A DNA stretch of 64,000 nucleotides from Nocardioides sp. Root1257 (GTDB lineage: Bacteria; Actinomycetota; Actinomycetes; Propionibacteriales; Nocardioidaceae): the NCBI RefSeq assembly GCF_001425175.1, contig NZ_LMDV01000009.1, positions 248,001 to 312,000 on the forward strand, written 5' to 3'. Under the pieces are notes generated by a model. It saw only the letters and a program-made list of their open reading frames with translations, was not told the origin of the DNA and did not search any database. How positions within the stretch are numbered: the stretch's first letter is position 1; the number at the start of each line of letters is the position of its first letter. Shown here in pieces: positions 43,597 through 52,346 of the stretch. Position numbers and translations under genes: made by a program.

Positions 43597-44771
43597 CCCG
43601 CGAGCGCACGCCGGCCGACGCCGCTGCTCTGCAGCCGTCGCACGGCCTTCTCGCGCCAGCGGTACGTCGGGCGCAGGTAGGAGCGCTCGAGCGCGCGGTA
43701 GGCCGCGTCGAGCTCGGCCTGCAGCTCGCCCTCGCGGCGCCGCAGGCGAGCGCCCTCGAGGAGGGTGGCCTTGAGCGCGTCGACGGCCGCGTCGGCGACC
43801 TGGGCCTCGTCGGGGTGGTCGGGGTCGGCGTACTCCGCGACCGGCGGCGCGCCGACCAGGTCCGCGGTGTCGCCGACGACGTCGTAGCCGCGCCGCGCGA
43901 TCTCGTCGAGCCACGAGGCGGTGACGTCGGCGACCCACGGGTGCAGGTCCGGCGGCAGGGCCAGGCGGGGCGACTGCGTGCGGCGGGACAGCGTCTGGTG
44001 GGCCAGCAGCTCGCGCACCAGCGGCCGGTAGTCCGCGGGCTCGAGCTCCTGGTTGGCAGCGCGGTTGATGCGGCGGACCAGCGCCGTCTCGGGGACGCCG
44101 AGCGACGGGTTGGTGCGCTCGGCCTCGAGGGTGAGGTCGAGCCCGTCGAGGCCGAACACCGTGCTGAACCGCTTCCACAGCAGCTCCTGCGGACCGCCGA
44201 GCGGGGGCACGGTGACGAGGTGCACACGCTCCGGGGGCAGGTCGCCACCCCACCGGTTCAGGATGTCGGGCAGCTCCTGCACGCCCCAGAACCAGGTGGC
44301 GATCCGCGACTCGCGCCGCGGGTCCCGGATCTCGTCGAGGAAGGCGCGGTAGGAGAGGCCGGTGCGGTGCTTGACGTTCTCCTGCCACTCGGCCGGGATC
44401 TGACGCACCAGGTCGCGCACCGACACGACCACGTGGATCTCGGTGCCGTCGTCGTGCCCGAGCGACGTCAGCGCCCGGCCGACCTGGGCCCGCGACGCGG
44501 TCGCGAGGATCTCGTGGCTGATGATCGAGGTGCCCTCGTGCCGGCGCACCTGGGCGGCCAGGTCGTCCCAGCGGCCGACGGCCTGGGTCTCGAGACCACC
44601 CCACGGCATCCGCATCAGGTCGAGGGCGGCCAGGAAGTGGGCGTCGAAGCGGTCGGCCGGGTAGAGGATGCCGGCCGCGTCGAGCGTGCGCTGGTTGCGG
44701 AACAGCACGTCCTGCAGGTACGACGTACCCGTCTTCGGGGTGCCGACGTGCAGCAGGACGCGGGAGCTCAC
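43557..44771 (-). CDS. Sulfotransferase-family protein
   Basis: The 404-residue cytoplasmic protein starts at GTG 44771, coupled to the upstream gene by GTGA. The PAPS 5'-phosphosulfate loop LLHVGTPKTGTSYLQDVLF is at residues ~6-24, and the 3'-phosphate region IHVVVSVRDLVRQIPAEW is near residue 125. A WGVQELPDILNRW region and ERTNPSLGVPE follow. The C-terminal ~60 residues form a basic helical tail (RRREGELQAELDAAYRALERSY). It probably transfers sulfate from PAPS to a cell-surface glycan or lipid; the acceptor is unknown. Confidence 0.8.
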   Translation of the reverse strand: MSSRVLLHVGTPKTGTSYLQDVLFRNQRTLDAAGILYPADRFDAHFLAALDLMRMPWGGLETQAVGRWDDLAAQVRRHEGTSIISHEILATASRAQVGRALTSLGHDDGTEIHVVVSVRDLVRQIPAEWQENVKHRTGLSYRAFLDEIRDPRRESRIATWFWGVQELPDILNRWGGDLPPERVHLVTVPPLGGPQELLWKRFSTVFGLDGLDLTLEAERTNPSLGVPETALVRRINRAANQELEPADYRPLVRELLAHQTLSRRTQSPRLALPPDLHPWVADVTASWLDEIARRGYDVVGDTADLVGAPPVAEYADPDHPDEAQVADAAVDALKATLLEGARLRRREGELQAELDAAYRALERSYLRPTYRWREKAVRRLQSSGVGRRALAGYRRVRGRSSPAA

Positions 44772-45865
44772 GGGACCTTCTTCTCGAGGAGCAGGCGCAG
44801 GGCCAGCGCCAGGACGCCGGCGTCCGAGGGTTGCGTGACGCCGGGGCGCTCGACGGGCAGCAGGCCGTCGGGATCGCCGAGGACAGGGTAGCCAGCGCGG
44901 ACCACCGCGTCGCGCATGGTGCGGGCCCGCTCGCGCGCCCAGCGGGCCCGGCGCGGCGGCAGGACCAGCGCCGGACCGGGGTGCTCGGCCAGGCGGGGCA
45001 CCAGCACCTGGCGCAGGAGGGCGCGCCGCTCCGCGGGCACCGCCAGCAGGGCGAGGACCTGCCCGGTGCGCCGGGCCAGCTCGACGGCGTCCGCCGAGAG
45101 CGCCGGTGCCGCGGCCAGGGGGCGGCGCACGCCGACCAGCTTGGGCAGCGCGTCGACGTCGAGCACGACCCGCACCCGGCGTACGCCGACCCGCTCGGCC
45201 GCGGTCCGCGCCAGCCGGGGCAGGTCGATGCGGTCGGGCAGCTCGTCGAGCCGGGCGGCGCGCCCGATCCAGTCGGACCACGGGGTCACGCCGCTCCCGA
45301 TGCTCCGGGCGGTCCAGGCGTCGACGAGCATCTGCCCGACGTCGGTGCCGACCACCAGGACGAGCTCGTTGCGGCCGCCGGGCGGCCGGCCGCGCGAGAC
45401 CAGGTCGACGCGCCGCGGATCGGTGAGCATCGGGTCGCCGAGCAGCCGGTAGCGGGTGCGCCACGGCCGCGGTCGGGGCGGCGTCGACACCGGCAGCCCC
45501 GCGCCGTGCACGTCCTCGGCGAGGAGGGCGGTGGCGACCCGGAGCAGCTCGTCGGCGTCGAGGTCGGCGGGGTCGACGGGCGGCGGTCCGAACGCGAGCG
45601 GCTCGACAGAGCCGGCCAGCTCGAGGTCGGGGCGGCCGCGGCCGGGCGCGCTCGCCTCGAGCACCCGGCCGGCGAGGGCGGCCGGGACCGGGCCGGACGC
45701 GTTCAGGCGACGGAGCAGCTCGAGCTGCTGGGCCCCGGGGAGGTGCCGGCCGTGCGCAGCCCCCTCGGCGGACCAGTCGCGCCACGGCGTCGTACCGCCG
45801 TCACGCAGGTGGGCGGCCCAGCCCCAGGCGCGCCGGAGGCCGGGGGTGTCGCCGGCGTCCGTCAT
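44768..45865 (-). CDS. Diverged sulfotransferase-like paralogue lacking the PAPS loop
   Basis: The 365-residue protein sits between two sulfotransferases and overlaps both (ATGA at each side). No PKTGT loop is present. Its second half aligns by eye with its neighbours: VLVVGTDVGQMLVDAWTARS with VVVSVRDLVRQIPAEW, SDWIGRAARLDELPDRI with the helix after it, and LPPRRARWARERARTMRDAV...GYPVLGDPDGLLP with the neighbours' LPP...W...GY.VVGD..DL. It is probably a catalytically dead relative. A scaffold or regulatory role is inference. Confidence 0.7.
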   Translation of the reverse strand: MTDAGDTPGLRRAWGWAAHLRDGGTTPWRDWSAEGAAHGRHLPGAQQLELLRRLNASGPVPAALAGRVLEASAPGRGRPDLELAGSVEPLAFGPPPVDPADLDADELLRVATALLAEDVHGAGLPVSTPPRPRPWRTRYRLLGDPMLTDPRRVDLVSRGRPPGGRNELVLVVGTDVGQMLVDAWTARSIGSGVTPWSDWIGRAARLDELPDRIDLPRLARTAAERVGVRRVRVVLDVDALPKLVGVRRPLAAAPALSADAVELARRTGQVLALLAVPAERRALLRQVLVPRLAEHPGPALVLPPRRARWARERARTMRDAVVRAGYPVLGDPDGLLPVERPGVTQPSDAGVLALALRLLLEKKVP

Positions 45866-46950
45866 CGCTCCCGCAGCCGCTTGGCGACCTTGGTGACCCG
45901 CGCACTGAGGTGCTCGTCGGGGTCGTCGCGCCGGGCGGCCTCCTCGATCATCGCGACCAGGGCGTCGAGCGCCGCGTCGGCGACGTCACGGGGCCGGGCC
46001 CGGTCCGGGTTGAGCCAGACCGCGTCGGCCGGCGGACGCACCGGACGCAGGTCGTCGAGGTCGCCGACCACGTCGACGCCGGAGCCGATGATCCACTCCC
46101 GCCAGGAGTCCGCGATCTCGTCGGCCCAGTCGTAGCACGGGGGCGGCAGGGTGAGCCGGTCCGTGTTCTTGCCCGCGGCGAGCGTGTCGTGGACGAGCAG
46201 CTGGCGCACCAGGGCGCGGTAGTCGGCGTGGTCCACGTCCGCGCGCCGGAGCCGGGTGTTGAGGCGGCGCAGCATCGCGCTCTCGGCGACCCCGATCGAC
46301 GGGTTGCGGCGGACGCTGTCGAGCGGCGCCCAGGCCGGGTCCACCCCGACCGCCCGGCAGAAGCGGCGCCACAGCTCGCCGTGCGGCGCGCCGGGCTGCG
46401 GCACCGTGACGACGTGGACCTGGTCGGGCGGCAGCTGGCGGCTCCACCGCTCGAGGACCTGGGTGACGCCCTGGACCTGCCAGAATGACTGCGCGACGCC
46501 GGTGCGGGTCTTCTGGATCCGGCGGACGAACTTGCCGTACGACAGGCGGCGCTGGTGCTTGAGCCGCTCCTGCCACTCCGCGGGCACCTGGCGCGCGATG
46601 TCGCGGGCGGTCAGCACCACGTGGATCTGGGCCGGCGCGAGCGACGTGACCGCCCGCTCGACCTGCTCACGGGTGGCGCCCGCGAGGATCTCGTGGCTGA
46701 TCACGACGGTGCCGTGCGCGCGTCGGGTCCGCTTGACCAGGGCGTCCCACTCGCCCTTCGAGTCGGCGAGCAGGCCGCCCCACGGACGCTCGACGAGGTC
46801 GAGGGCGGCGTGGAACATGTCGGCGCGCAGGCCGATCGGGTAGCGGACGTCGTGGCGGGCCAGGGCCGCCCGGTTCAGCGCGAGCCGGTCCTGGATGTAG
46901 GTGGTCCCGGTCTTGGGCGAACCCACATGGAGGTAGACGACGTCGGCCAT
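45862..46950 (-). CDS. Sulfotransferase-family protein
   Basis: The 362-residue protein starts at ATG 46950. The PAPS loop YLHVGSPKTGTTYIQDRL is at residues 6-23 and the second site IHVVLTARDIARQVPAEW is near residue 118. VRRNPSIGVAE and the C-terminal GVDVVGDLDDLRPV follow the same pattern as its neighbour 1 kb away. It is 26 bp downstream of the HMG-CoA lyase gene on the same strand, so it may be transcribed with the leucine operon or have its own promoter. Sulfate acceptor unknown. Confidence 0.8.
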   Translation of the reverse strand: MADVVYLHVGSPKTGTTYIQDRLALNRAALARHDVRYPIGLRADMFHAALDLVERPWGGLLADSKGEWDALVKRTRRAHGTVVISHEILAGATREQVERAVTSLAPAQIHVVLTARDIARQVPAEWQERLKHQRRLSYGKFVRRIQKTRTGVAQSFWQVQGVTQVLERWSRQLPPDQVHVVTVPQPGAPHGELWRRFCRAVGVDPAWAPLDSVRRNPSIGVAESAMLRRLNTRLRRADVDHADYRALVRQLLVHDTLAAGKNTDRLTLPPPCYDWADEIADSWREWIIGSGVDVVGDLDDLRPVRPPADAVWLNPDRARPRDVADAALDALVAMIEEAARRDDPDEHLSARVTKVAKRLRER

Positions 46951-46976
46951 GTCGAGGATTCTGCCGCAGGCCCCGG

Positions 46977-47900
46977 CTACGCGAGCGCGCGGACGACCGC
47001 CGAGGGGCTCGGCCGGCCGAGGTGCCCCGCCATCCAGACGCTGGTGTCGACCACCTGCTGGAGGTCGACACCGCACTCGATGCCGAGGCCGCGCAGCATC
47101 CAGACCAGGTCCTCGGTCGCGAGGTTGCCGGTGGCGCTCTCGGCGTAGGGGCAGCCGCCGAGCCCGCCGGCGCTCGCGTCGTACGTCGTGATGCCGGCGC
47201 GCAGCGCGGAGAGCGTGTTCGCGAGCGCCTGCCCGTAGGTGTCGTGGAAGTGCATCGCGAGCTGGTCGGTGCCCATGCCGGCCCGGCCGAACGCGTCGAC
47301 GAGGGCGGTCACGTGCCCGGCGGTGCCGACGCCGATGGTGTCGCCGAGGCTGAGCTGGCTGGCGCCGAGGTCGAAGAGCCGCTTGCCGACGCTGACGACC
47401 TGGTCGACGGGCACGCCGCCCTCCCACGGGTCGCCGAAGCACATGGACACGTAGGCGCGGACGTCGAGACCGGCGTCGCGGGCGCGACGGACGGTCGGCT
47501 CGAACATGGCGAACTGCTCGTCGAGGCTCCGGTTGAGGTTCTTCTGCGCGAAGGTCTCGGTCGCGGAGCCGAAGATCGCGACGTGCCGGGCGCCGAGCTC
47601 GAGGGCCCGGTCGAGGCCGCGCTCGTTGGGGACGAGCACGGGGCAGTCCCGGCCGGCCTCGCCCAGCAGCTCCATCAGGTCGGCGGCGTCGGCGAGCTGG
47701 GGCACCCATTGCGGGTGCACGAAGCTGGTGGCCTCGACGATCGGCAGGCCGGCGGCGAGGAGACGGCGTACGAACTCGGCCTTCACGTCGGTGGGGACGA
47801 GGGCCTTCTCGTTCTGGAGCCCGTCGCGCGGGCCGACCTCGTAGATCGTGACCCGGTCGGGCAGGCCGTCGGCTCGGACGGTCATGGGCAGGTCACTCAT
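46977..47900 (-). CDS. mvaB: Hydroxymethylglutaryl-CoA lyase
   Basis: The 307-residue TIM-barrel enzyme has VGPRDGLQNEK at residues 22-32 (metal and catalytic residues) and the Cys loop GLGGCPYAESATGN near residue 255. It splits HMG-CoA to acetoacetate and acetyl-CoA, the last step of leucine catabolism. ATG 47900 overlaps the upstream carboxylase stop by 8 bp; ATG 47885 is an alternative. Confidence 0.95.
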   Translation of the reverse strand: MSDLPMTVRADGLPDRVTIYEVGPRDGLQNEKALVPTDVKAEFVRRLLAAGLPIVEATSFVHPQWVPQLADAADLMELLGEAGRDCPVLVPNERGLDRALELGARHVAIFGSATETFAQKNLNRSLDEQFAMFEPTVRRARDAGLDVRAYVSMCFGDPWEGGVPVDQVVSVGKRLFDLGASQLSLGDTIGVGTAGHVTALVDAFGRAGMGTDQLAMHFHDTYGQALANTLSALRAGITTYDASAGGLGGCPYAESATGNLATEDLVWMLRGLGIECGVDLQQVVDTSVWMAGHLGRPSPSAVVRALA

Positions 47901-49779
47901 CGGGCTGCACCTCCATCTCGACCTCCAGCAGGGTCGCACCGAGCGCGACCTGCGCACCGGTGGTCGCGGCCAGCGCGGTGACGGTGCCGTCGAACGGCGC
48001 CTTGAGCGACAGCTCCATCTTCATCGCCTCGAGGACGACGAGCACCTGGCCGGCCTCGACGCGGTCGCCGTCGGCCACGCGTACGTCGAGGATGGTGCCG
48101 GGCATGGGCGAGGTGATCGTGCCGTCGCCGACGTCGGCCGCGTGGTCGCCGAAGACGTCGGGCCGCTCGAAGGCGAACCGCTGGCCCCGGTAGGACACCT
48201 CCGCGACGTGCGGCTGCACGTTGACGACGGCGACGTGGCGGGTGCCGCCGACGGCGAGCACCAGCGTGTGGTCGGCGGCCGACACCTGCCGGACCTCGGT
48301 CCCGTCGACGGTCCCGCGGGCGCGGTCGACGACGACCGGGCGGTCGAGCTCGACGATGGTCGGCGCCGGGTCGGCGCCCGAGCGCCAGCCGTCGGACTGG
48401 AAGGGGTGGCCCGCGTCGACGACCGCGGTGAGCATCGCGCTCACCCAGGCCACGAAGATCCGCGGCAGCTCGTCGTCGGGCTTCTCGACCACTGCCGTGT
48501 CGAGCCAGGCCGTGTCGATCGTGGCGTCGCGGAACTCGTCGCTGGCCGCCAGCGCCCGCAGGAACCCGGTGTTGGTGGTGAGGCCGAGGATCGCGGTCCG
48601 GTCGAGGGCGTCGACCAGGGCTCGGCGCGCGTCCTCCCGCGTCGCTCCGTGAGCGATGACCTTGCCGAGCATCGGGTCGTACGACGTGCTCACCACCTGC
48701 TCCGGCTCGAGCGCGTGGTCGACCCGCACCCCGGCCGGCCAGCGCACGATGCTCGTCGCACCGGCCTGGGGCAGGAAGCCGCCGAACGAGTCCTCGGCGT
48801 ACACCCGCGCCTCGATGGCGTGGCCGGTGACGGTGACGTCGGCCTGGGTGATGGGCAGCGGCTCACCGGCGGCCACCCGCAGCTGGAGCTCGACCAGGTC
48901 CAGCCCCGTGATGGCCTCGGTGACCGGGTGCTCGACCTGGAGGCGGGTGTTCATCTCCAGGAAGTAGGCCTCGCCGGTGTCGGCGTCGAGCAGGAACTCG
49001 ACGGTGCCGGCGTTCTCGTAGCCGACGTGCCTGCTGAGCGCGACCGCGCTGCTCGTGACGAGCTCGCGTATCTCCGGGGTGATGGTCGGCGCGGGCGCCT
49101 CCTCCAGCACCTTCTGGTGGCGGCGCTGGGTGGAGCAGTCGCGCTCGAAGAGGTGCACGACGTTGCCGTGGGCGTCTGCCAGCACCTGGACCTCGATGTG
49201 ACGGCCGTGCTCGACGTACTTCTCGACGAGCATCGTGTCGTCGCCGAACGACGACAGCGCCTCGCGCCTGGCCGCGGCCACGGCGTCGTCGTACTCCTCG
49301 GCGGAGCGGACGACGCGCATGCCCTTGCCGCCGCCACCGGCGGCGGCCTTCACGAGCACCGGGTAGCTCGCGTCGTCGGTCGGCTCGCCCTGCGGCACCA
49401 CCGGCACGCCCGCGGCGATCGCGATCTCGCGGGCCGCGTCCTTGCGGCCCATCCGGTCCATCACGTCGGCGGACGGGCCGACCAGCTTGATGCCGGCCGT
49501 CTCGAGCGCGCGGGCGAAGGCGGCCCGCTCGGAGAGGAAGCCGTAGCCGGGGTGGACCGCGTCGGCGCCGACCTGCTGGGCCGCGGCGACGACGGAGTCG
49601 ATGTCGAGATAGCTCGGGACGCGCACCGCGTCGTCGGCGGCGCGCACGTGCGGGGCGTCCGCGTCGAGGTCGGTGAAGAGCGCGATCGTGCGGATGCCCA
49701 TGGCCGTGGCCGTGCGCATGACGCGGAGCGCGATCTCGCCACGGTTGGCGACGAGGAGGGTCTTCACGCTGCTGCTCAT
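47893..49779 (-). CDS. Biotin-dependent acyl-CoA carboxylase alpha subunit (methylcrotonoyl-CoA type)
   Basis: The 628-residue protein holds a biotin carboxylase domain (LLVANRGEIALRVMRTA, KAAAGGGGKGMR ATP-grasp loop, EMNTRLQVEHPVTE) and a C-terminal biotinyl domain with EAMKMEL, biotinylated Lys587. With the carboxyltransferase upstream and HMG-CoA lyase downstream, 3-methylcrotonoyl-CoA is the likely substrate, as in leucine degradation. ATP-dependent biotin carboxylation occurs here. Seven bases separate it from the beta subunit. Confidence 0.92.
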   Translation of the reverse strand: MSSSVKTLLVANRGEIALRVMRTATAMGIRTIALFTDLDADAPHVRAADDAVRVPSYLDIDSVVAAAQQVGADAVHPGYGFLSERAAFARALETAGIKLVGPSADVMDRMGRKDAAREIAIAAGVPVVPQGEPTDDASYPVLVKAAAGGGGKGMRVVRSAEEYDDAVAAARREALSSFGDDTMLVEKYVEHGRHIEVQVLADAHGNVVHLFERDCSTQRRHQKVLEEAPAPTITPEIRELVTSSAVALSRHVGYENAGTVEFLLDADTGEAYFLEMNTRLQVEHPVTEAITGLDLVELQLRVAAGEPLPITQADVTVTGHAIEARVYAEDSFGGFLPQAGATSIVRWPAGVRVDHALEPEQVVSTSYDPMLGKVIAHGATREDARRALVDALDRTAILGLTTNTGFLRALAASDEFRDATIDTAWLDTAVVEKPDDELPRIFVAWVSAMLTAVVDAGHPFQSDGWRSGADPAPTIVELDRPVVVDRARGTVDGTEVRQVSAADHTLVLAVGGTRHVAVVNVQPHVAEVSYRGQRFAFERPDVFGDHAADVGDGTITSPMPGTILDVRVADGDRVEAGQVLVVLEAMKMELSLKAPFDGTVTALAATTGAQVALGATLLEVEMEVQPDE

Positions 49780-49786
49780 CGGCGCA

Positions 49787-51322
49787 TCACATCCGGAAGA
49801 CGCCGTAGGACGGCGTCGGGGTCGGGGCATTCGCGGCGGCCGCGAGGCCGAGTCCGAGGACGCGTCGGGTGTCGGCGGGGTCGATGATGCCGTCGTCCCA
49901 GAGGCGGGCCGTGGCGTAGTAGGGCGAGCCCTGCGTCTCGTACTGCTCGCGGATCGGCGCCTTGAAGTCCTCGTCGTCGGGCTTGCCGGCGACGGTCGCG
50001 AGGACCGAGGCGGCCTGCTCGCCACCCATCACCGAGATCCGCGCATTGGGCCACATCCAGAGGAAGCGCGGGTCGTAGGCGCGCCCGCACATGCCGTAGT
50101 TGCCGGCGCCGAAGGAGCCGCCGATGACGACGGTGAACTTCGGGACGACCGAGCAGGCGACGGCCGTGACGAGCTTGGCGCCGTCCTTGGCGATGCCGCC
50201 GTTCTCGTACTCCTTGCCGACCATGAATCCGGAGATGTTCTGCAGGAAGACCAGCGGGATGCCGCGCTGGTTGCACAGCTCGATGAAGTGCGCGCCCTTG
50301 AGCGCGGACTCGCTGAAGAGGATGCCGTTGTTGGCCACGATGCCGACCGGGTGGCCCCAGATGTGCGCGAACCCGGTCACCAACGTCTCGCCGTACAGCT
50401 TCTTGAACTCGTGGAACCGGCTGCCGTCGACGACGCGGCGGATCACCTCGCGGACGTCGTACGGCGTCCGGGTGTCGGCGGGCACGACGTCGTACAGCGT
50501 GGACGGGTCCTCGTGGGGCTCCTCGACGGGAGCGAGCTCGTACGGCGCCCCAGCGGGCCGGCGCTCGAGCGTGCCGACGATGCTGCGGACGATCGCGAGG
50601 GCGTGCGCGTCGTCCTCGGCGAGGTGGTCGACGACGCCGGACGTACGGGCGTGGACGTCGCCGCCACCGAGCTCCTCGGCGGTGACGATCTCGCCGGTCG
50701 CGGCCTTCACCAGCGGCGGGCCGCCGAGGAAGATCGTGCCCTGGTTGCGCACGATGACCGTCTCGTCGGACATCGCCGGCACGTACGCGCCACCGGCGGT
50801 GCACGAGCCCATCACGCTCGCGATCTGCGGGATCCCCTGCGCGGACAGGTTGGCCTGGTTGAAGAAGATCCGCCCGAAGTGCTCGCGGTCCGGGAACACC
50901 TCGTCCTGCATCGGCAGGAACGCGCCACCGGAGTCGACGAGGTAGATGCAGGGCAGCCGGTTCTCGGCCGCGACGGTCTGCGCGCGCAGGTGCTTCTTGA
51001 CGGTCAACGGGTAGTAGGTGCCGCCCTTGACGGTCGCGTCGTTGGCGACCACGACCACCTCGCGGCCGCTGACCCGGCCGATGCCGGTCACGACGCCGGC
51101 ACTGGGGACGGGCGACTCGCCGGGGCCGCCGTACATGCCCGTCGCGGCGAGCGGGCTGAGCTCCAGGAACGGGCTGCCCGGGTCGAGCAGCCGGTCGACC
51201 CGGTCGCGGACCAGCAGCTTGCCGCGGTCGGTGTGCTTGGTCCGGGCCGCCTCGCTGCCGCCCTGCCGCGCAGCGGCGAGCCGCTCGCGCAGGTCGTCCA
51301 CGAGCTCCTTCATGTGGGTCAC
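49787..51322 (-). CDS. Acyl-CoA carboxylase beta subunit, carboxyltransferase (methylcrotonoyl-CoA type)
   Basis: The 511-residue carboxyltransferase has [22 protein letters not shown], the N-terminal acyl-CoA region [16 protein letters not shown] and the C-terminal oxyanion region [20 protein letters not shown]. It moves CO2 from biotin to the acyl-CoA. The start is GTG 51322; ATG 51313 is an alternative. A TetR-type palindrome lies 7 bp upstream. It is the first gene of an operon continuing with the alpha subunit and HMG-CoA lyase. Confidence 0.93.
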
Positions 51323-51328
51323 CCCACC

Positions 51329-51350
51329 TAGGTTAGCGATCGTTAACCTA
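51329..51350. promoter_or_regulatory. TetR-type operator in the carboxylase/thioredoxin intergenic region
   Basis: A 22-bp near-palindrome matches its own complement at 20 of 22 positions, core GGTTA-N8-TAACC. It lies 7 bp from the carboxylase GTG and 50 bp from the thioredoxin ATG. The same core with the same spacing recurs at 51778-51795. Confidence 0.75.
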
Positions 51351-51399
51351 CGGGTCCACCGCTGGGAACATCCGTCGTCCTCCAGCCGTTGAGAACGGC

Positions 51400-51783
51400 A
51401 TGGCCACCACCGAGCTGACCGCGGACACCTTCGAGCAGACCGTCGTCGACAACGGCATCGTCCTCGTCGACTTCTGGGCGTCGTGGTGCGGCCCGTGCCG
51501 GCAGTTCGCCCCGGTCTACGAGGACGCGGCCGGTCGCCACGACGACGTCGTCTTCGGCAAGGTCGACACCGAGGCGGAGCAGTCCCTGGCGGCCGCCGCT
51601 CAGATCACCTCGATCCCGACGCTGATGGCCTTCCGCGACGGCATCCTGGTCTTCAGCCAGCCCGGCGCCCTCCCCGCGCCCGCGCTCGAGCAGGTGATCA
51701 CGGCGGTCAAGGACCTCGACATGGACGACGTACGCCGCCAGATCGCCGAGCAGCAGGGCGGACAGCAGCCCGAGCAGGGTTAA
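51400..51783 (+). CDS. Thioredoxin
   Basis: The 127-residue thioredoxin has [17 protein letters not shown] with the redox pair Cys30/Cys33, cis-Pro loop SIPTLMAF and a polar C-terminal tail. It reduces protein disulfides. It is divergent from the carboxylase operon and likely co-regulated through the 51329 operator. Its TAA stop lies inside the second operator copy, just upstream of tetR. Confidence 0.93.
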
Positions 51784-51795
51784 CACCCACTAACC
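51778..51795 (+). promoter_or_regulatory. Second TetR-type operator, in front of tetR
   Basis: GGTTA, 8 bases and TAACC sit 9 bp upstream of the tetR start and overlap the thioredoxin stop codon. The half-sites and spacing match those at 51329-51350, suggesting autoregulation. Confidence 0.72.
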
Positions 51796-51803
51796 TGAGC
51801 GGC

Positions 51804-52346
51804 ATGAGCCGCAGGGACCAGATCCTGGAGACCGCAGCGGAGCTGTTCGCCCAGCGCGGCTACCACGGGGTCTCGGTGGCCGACCTGGGCGCGGCGTGCG
51901 GGATCTCCGGGCCGGCGCTCTACAAGCACTTCCCGTCGAAGCAGGCGATGCTCGCGGAGATGCTCGTGTCGATCAGCGAGGAGCTGCTCCGCGAGGGCCG
52001 GCGACGGGTCGCCGAGACGCCCGATCCCCAGGCCGCACTGGCCGCGCTGGTCGACTGGCACGTCGACTTCGCGCTGCGGCACCGGCCCCTGATCGTCGTC
52101 CAGGACCGCGACTGGGAGTCGCTGCCGGCCGAGGCACGCGAGCAGGTGCGCGCCCTGCAGCGCGAGTACGTCGACCTGTGGGCCGCCGAGCTCCGACTGC
52201 TCGACCCGGCCCTCGACCTGCCGACGGCGCGGTCGATGGCGCACGCCGCGTTCGGGCTGATCAACTCCACCCCGCACAGCGGGCTGCTGCCCGACGCCCG
52301 GATGCGGGAGCTGCTCAGCCGGATGGCGCTCGGCGCGCTGGGCTGA
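51804..52346 (+). CDS. TetR family regulator, probable repressor of the carboxylase operon
   Basis: The 180-residue protein has the TetR HTH RRDQILETAAELFAQRGYHG then VADLGAACGISGPALYKHF at residues ~3-47. The C-terminal ligand-binding domain has TADIR-like helices (DWHVDFALRHRPLIVVQDRD). Two matching palindromes, one at its own start and one at the carboxylase/thioredoxin promoters, point to a local regulon. An acyl-CoA inducer is inference from the operon content. Confidence 0.9.
   Translation: MSRRDQILETAAELFAQRGYHGVSVADLGAACGISGPALYKHFPSKQAMLAEMLVSISEELLREGRRRVAETPDPQAALAALVDWHVDFALRHRPLIVVQDRDWESLPAEAREQVRALQREYVDLWAAELRLLDPALDLPTARSMAHAAFGLINSTPHSGLLPDARMRELLSRMALGALG

Follow-up and report, generated by a model that had tools for sequence, protein, structure and literature searches.

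Two palindromes that flank a thioredoxin gene (trx) in Nocardioides sp. Root1257 are very probably, to judge from their sequence and conservation, operators of the TetR-family regulator encoded beside them. We favor a model in which this regulator, of the AccR/BkaR type, represses its own gene and leucine/short-chain acyl-CoA catabolism, and trx is a bystander driven by an ECF sigma factor; taken as a whole, this model appears very likely. The sites, their conservation, the protein family, and the promoter motif are read from the sequence, and we infer binding, repression, ligand, sigma-factor use, and ancestry. According to the model, TetR bound to operator 1 would cover the accD1 promoter and repress accD1A1-hmgL, TetR on operator 2 would repress its own gene (tetR, here also accR), and a third operator would mediate repression of an unlinked acyl-CoA dehydrogenase gene (fadE); by analogy, an acyl-CoA of the pathway probably releases TetR.

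The regulator, the carboxylase operon, and the two palindromes

The following features were located in the window, the whole stretch of 64,000 nucleotides that was analyzed.

46977..47900, minus strand: hydroxymethylglutaryl-CoA lyase gene (hmgL; NF004283, 359.5 bits against a cut-off of 246; predicted start)
47893..49779, minus strand: accA1-type biotin carboxylase/carrier subunit gene (open reading frame with an internal ATG, named by eye; predicted start)
49787..51313, minus strand: accD1-type acyl-CoA carboxylase carboxyltransferase gene (Carboxyl_trans, 515.5 bits; substrate suggested by the neighboring genes)
51330..51335, minus strand: putative accD1 -10 hexamer, TAACCT, made by an operator arm
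51331..51348: predicted operator 1, GGTTAGCGATCGTTAACC, on the accD1 side (exact match)
51365..51390, plus strand: predicted sigma-R/SigH-type trx promoter element (GGAAC at 51365-51369, N18, GTT at 51388-51390)
51400..51783, plus strand: thioredoxin gene (CGPC), between the two operators (PF00085, 91.1 bits; TIGR01068, 99.3 bits against a cut-off of 96.8)
51778..51795: predicted operator 2, GGTTAACACCCACTAACC, on the tetR/accR side with the trx stop codon inside it (exact match)
51791..51796, plus strand: putative tetR -10 hexamer, TAACCT, made by an operator arm
51804..52346, plus strand: TetR-family repressor gene, AccR/BkaR type (NCBIfam NF050111, SACE_7040 family; 271 bits against a cut-off of 250)

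Profile searches assign TetR_N and TetR_C_24 domains to the TetR protein, and phmmer matched it to PDB entries 4g12, 6yj2, and 6yl2 at E values of about 3e-46 (3.3e-46 over residues 2-175 for 4g12). Entry 4G12 is Fad35R, described as another group's name for BkaR (PMC3920632). Several features of the type are present, namely, GTTA-N8-TAAC arms before both tetR and accD1, homology to BkaR/Fad35R, and a divergent accD1 operon; on sequence grounds, the protein is an AccR/BkaR-type repressor. The accD1 start was placed at the ATG at 51313, with an alternative in-frame GTG at 51322, and an accA1-type gene adjoins accD in many relatives. Downstream of hmgL, on the minus strand at 44768-47000, lie two sulfotransferase-like open reading frames (the VGTPKTGTSYLQ and VGSPKTGTTYIQ stretches) that look alike by eye and are possibly a duplicated pair.

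GGTTA-N8-TAACC, which had been proposed at two places in a sequence-only reading of this DNA, is present as an exact match at both. The coordinates given there for the first site, 51329-51350, are those of a 22-bp extended palindrome (TAGGTTA-N8-TAACCTA) around the core proper at 51331-51348. The second site does overlap the trx stop codon (TAA, 51781-51783), as claimed, but it ends 8 bp rather than 9 bp before the tetR ATG at 51804. At up to two mismatches, the number of sites in the window is ordinary (three, against a shuffle mean of 2.29, with 36 of 100 shuffles reaching three).

The TAACCT arm would serve as the -10 hexamer of near-leaderless transcripts, and a bound dimer would therefore block RNA polymerase. 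Start codons lie close to the sites, as in the 8 bp between operator 2 and tetR, and the T that follows TAACC is kept in 47 of 51 accD-side and 31 of 34 tetR-side sites across relatives. For accD1, the search for a conserved -35 turned up a single kept base, a G located 9 bp before the site in 82% of 51 loci, and we therefore claim no firm -35 element.

Sites across relatives and elsewhere in the genome

Of 149 family genomes, 124 gave a TetR match at an E value of 1e-20 or better; our own genome and one weak (38%) match are among them. After leaving out the own genome, G080, G069, and G003 (the 38% match), 120 tetR loci were read; a divergent accD was in view at 102 of them and not in view at the other 18. 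Gaps of up to 400 bp were scanned whole and longer gaps at their two ends. With at most one mismatch allowed, a site was present at 94 of the 102 divergent accD/tetR loci (75 of them exact) and absent from 8, while four control palindromes at the same stringency were found at 0, 0, 1, and 1 of the 102. This family-wide test rules out chance palindromes. A single site serves both genes at 41 loci, where the gap is 50 to 161 bp, and the remaining loci have separate accD-side (51) and tetR-side (34) sites; the accD-side site has the lineage form GGTTA(A/G)CGATCG(C/T)TAACC. Together, the sites, their conservation, and the protein family support the earlier proposal that the TetR controls itself and the carboxylase/HMG-CoA lyase operon.

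The divergent arrangement of accD1 and tetR over a short gap is the usual layout in these genomes and probably the ancestral one. Other genes, unrelated in sequence and in either orientation, have entered the gap at 35 loci and widened it to more than 600 bp; 29 of these loci retain a site near accD, 20 near tetR, and 19 near both. By eye, the inserts include methionine-biosynthesis-like pairs, MFS transporters, and response regulators. The accD-tetR gap thus behaves as a place of insertion, and the operators at its two ends for the most part remain beside accD and tetR. At the 12 loci with trx in the gap, site 1 lies 16 to 20 bp from the accD ATG; the median distance across the family is 20 bp, with the commonest values ranging from 8 to 57. 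A different order was seen in four relatives (L069, L070, L077, and L124), in which tetR is followed by accD in the same orientation and preceded by a gene like the window's SNF2-helicase-like open reading frame; no site with at most one mismatch was listed upstream of tetR in these four.

The whole 5.49-Mb genome holds four exact GGTTA-N8-TAACC sites and no match to the reversed control. Exact sites are therefore rare. When the inner bases were restricted to the family type (GGTTARYRNNYRYTAACC, at most one mismatch), three genome sites and no control match remained: both window operators and one site before fadE (L004). The genome scan that the sequence-only reading had suggested for further sites thus extends the predicted regulon, which comprises accR, accD1A1-hmgL, and fadE. 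An exact site lies directly 5' of fadE in 11 of the 12 relatives searched, where the fadE genes are 84 to 91% identical to that of L004; the twelfth relative, G099, has no exact site before fadE. In place of the -10 arm proposed for accD1 and tetR, most of the 12 fadE sequences have a TAGCAT-like element just downstream of the site.

Enoyl-CoA hydratase genes, which had also been suggested as places to look, gave a divided answer. In relative G108, an exact AccR-type site (L214, 1530-1547) stands directly before a gene that is enoyl-CoA hydratase-like by eye, which agrees with published echA targets of AccR. The closest relative of this gene in our own genome (L231) was dropped as a target, as no GTTA-N8-TAAC was found within two mismatches across its 3.7-kb locus. 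Eight matches of the form GGTTAC...GTAACC in relatives (L167 and L217 to L223) were not taken as AccR sites. Seven have no match to the query set; the eighth, an exact GGTTACCGTCCGGTAACC palindrome (L167, 1501-1518, in G131), follows closely on the 3' end of a trx orthologue, where it could act as a terminator hairpin instead of an operator. Two more matches, in G093 (L159 and L212), likewise have no match to the query set.

Another exact match in our own genome (L001, 1501-1518; C1:1056886) lies just 5' of a gene that is FTR1/EfeU-like permease by eye. It resembles an IdeR/DtxR-type iron-regulator box rather than an AccR site, and since it is one of the four exact genome matches, it lends some color to the idea that operators 1 and 2 belong to a regulator other than the adjacent TetR. 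We regard that idea as highly improbable: throughout the family the sites accompany this TetR, and their outer arms are shared with the BkaR motif shown by EMSA.

The thioredoxin gene and its relation to the regulon

Position between two operators of a local repressor does not by itself make a gene a target. Here trx has a GGAAC-N18-GTT element of its own; on the evidence of this motif, it is probably driven by a sigma-R/SigH-type ECF factor and a bystander to AccR. Operator 1 lies upstream of the element; 16 bp separate its end from the -35 box, and 51 bp separate it from the trx ATG. The genome encodes SigR (350.6 bits against a family cut-off of 251.55); its gene is preceded by the same element, 34 bp before the ATG, and followed by an open reading frame that is anti-sigma-like by eye.

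Within the regulator family, trx was found within 1.2 kb before tetR at 2 of 120 loci. A genus-wide trx search gave matches in 186 of 196 genomes, and the 30 loci that were read are biased toward close relatives because they were the best scoring. Trx copies were grouped by neighborhood alone, that is, by whether tetR or accD occurs in 3.4 kb. This gave 18 copies beside these genes, one of them the window copy, plus 13 elsewhere whose start was usable; the upstream count omits matches that begin beyond query residue 3, such as L184. Of the 18 copies next to tetR or accD, 17 have GGAAY-N18/19-GTT within 100 bp upstream. GGAA lies at -34/-35 in 12, the window copy among them, and at -83 to -92, where the element overlaps a CsoR-type box, in 5; the one copy with no such element within 100 bp is that of L191. 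Among the copies away from tetR and accD, 7 of 13 have the ECF-type element and 6 do not. Over all 31 upstream sequences, the element is present in 24; shuffled sequences averaged 0.235, with a maximum of 2 over 200 rounds.

Several relatives, mostly in or beside the accD-tetR gap, have trx together with a CsoR-like gene. ATACC-N6-GGTAT boxes occur there in pairs, one exact and the other imperfect, and some of these loci add genes for rhodanese and, named largely by eye, PDO-like and TauE-like proteins. In six of seven CsoR-type trx upstream sequences (L176, L178, L183, L186, L190, and L192, but not L191), GGAAT-N18/19-GTT overlaps the CsoR-type box, which makes joint ECF-sigma and persulfide control possible. 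G306 and G156 have both a CsoR-type trx and an ECF-element trx before tetR. No CsoR-like match was found in the 3.4 kb surrounding the window trx (L173), nor an ATACC-N6-GGTAT box upstream of it. Because of its ECF element, its CsoR-like company in relatives, and a distance from site 1 that is not kept, trx most likely belongs to sulfur/thiol stress. It most likely reached the leucine genes by insertion, perhaps of such a cassette that was later reduced to trx. A weak trx tree leaves a single origin of the gap trx unsupported, with 12 open forks of 30 inner branches; the gap label needs three changes, at least two of which are forced by well-supported branches. As this label combined neighborhood with an ECF-type element at short distance, it cannot be evidence for the element.

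The sequence-only reading had placed trx in the TetR regulon. In such a model, AccR at operator 1 would repress trx along with accD1, and the thioredoxin would supply reducing power during leucine catabolism. The position of operator 1, between the divergent accD1 and trx and close to the trx -35 box, speaks for such control, as does the nearly identical spacing in G181 (L226), which is 17 bp against 16 bp in the window. Across the 12 gap-trx loci, however, the distance from site 1 to the trx element runs from 16 bp to 6 kb, in contrast to the 16 to 20 bp kept on the accD side. Moreover, among 14 trx loci without accD or tetR in view, some of them truncated at contig ends, 13 lack a site with at most one mismatch in the sequence read, and the fourteenth (L183) has one poor site only. 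The gap also accepts many unrelated genes, of which trx is one. With this spacing not kept, the inserts in the gap, and an ECF-type element of its own, trx as an AccR target was rejected as the main reading and seems improbable to us; the proposed link between redox and leucine catabolism is most likely a matter of position. A bound dimer at operator 1 might still hinder trx, since only 16 bp separate it from the trx -35 box.

Coupling in the opposite direction, with the ECF-driven trx transcript reading into accR, is at least as plausible as hindrance of trx from operator 1. Thiol stress would then raise the repressor and shut down leucine catabolism, and AccR at operator 2 may in addition stop the trx transcript shortly before it is complete. 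In the window, the trx stop codon and the tetR start are just 20 bp apart, and in 7 of the 12 gap-trx loci that stop codon lies inside operator 2. The arrangement is not kept everywhere, however; in L229 and L230, trx and tetR are 1.5 to 1.8 kb apart, and we consider this coupling tentative and on balance unlikely. It is similarly doubtful, if conceivable, that capture of an ECF-promoter trx between twin AccR operators in a group of Nocardioides, with its stop codon made part of accR's operator, has led thiol stress to tighten repression by trx-accR read-through. The preferred reading keeps trx as an ECF-driven bystander of an AccR/BkaR-type autorepressor.

Relation to known systems

AccR/BkaR-type regulons have been described from Streptomyces and mycobacteria. 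The present analysis extends this kind of regulon to Nocardioides, with three sites counted genome-wide and strong conservation. The element that remains new would be stress-driven trx transcripts entering accR, in the direction opposite to that first proposed; if true, a coupling of redox state to catabolism would have been created by gene insertion. The accD-accR gap offers a natural test of how inserted genes do or do not get drawn into a regulon.

The CsoR-like trx cassettes of relatives resemble the ScCsoR sulfane-sulfur circuit of Streptomyces coelicolor, described with a CsoR-like regulator, PDO, rhodanese, TauE, and the box ATACC-N6-GGTAT (PMC7533328), with thioredoxin added; the window, unlike that circuit, has trx alone, without the CsoR-like gene or box. 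The window trx element fits the sigma-R/SigH promoter form GGAAT/C-N17-19-GTT given in PMC10012870, an example of which is the Corynebacterium glutamicum trxB1 promoter, GGAATA-N17-GTT. The window version is GGAAC, a form that both SigH and SigE are described as reading in C. glutamicum.

The window TetR scores over the curated cut-off of the SACE_7040 family (NF050111). SACE_7040 itself is described as a morphogenesis repressor, in a text passage that names no targets (PMC3825060). Among the closest known systems is AccR of Streptomyces avermitilis, which according to a review represses accD1A1-hmgL-fadE4, echA8, echA9, and fadE2 via GTTAA-N6-TTAAC (PMC10933834). Both are TetR repressors with the same operon type (accD1A1-hmgL, with fadE4 in S. 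avermitilis) and the same outer arms. They differ in that each window site is one base off GTTAA-N6-TTAAC, fadE is unlinked and has its own site (L004), trx separates the twin operators, and the 3.7-kb locus of the echA relative in our own genome has no site.

BkaR/Fad35R (Rv2506, MSMEG_4718) is a homologous protein that shares autoregulation; two copies of GTTA(N)T(N4)A(N)TAAC are reported to mediate its repression of both its own gene and the divergent accD1 operon (PMC3920632). In Mycobacterium smegmatis, as described there, two operators lie between bkaR and accD1 in the GTTA-N8-TAAC format of the window. The mycobacterial operon adds bkd genes, citE, and fadE19, and its two operators lie in one intergenic region. 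The window sites do not have the inner T and A of the published BkaR core; because the cores of AccR and BkaR differ from each other at these positions, the inner bases were not counted as defining the type, and the operator core appears to differ by lineage.
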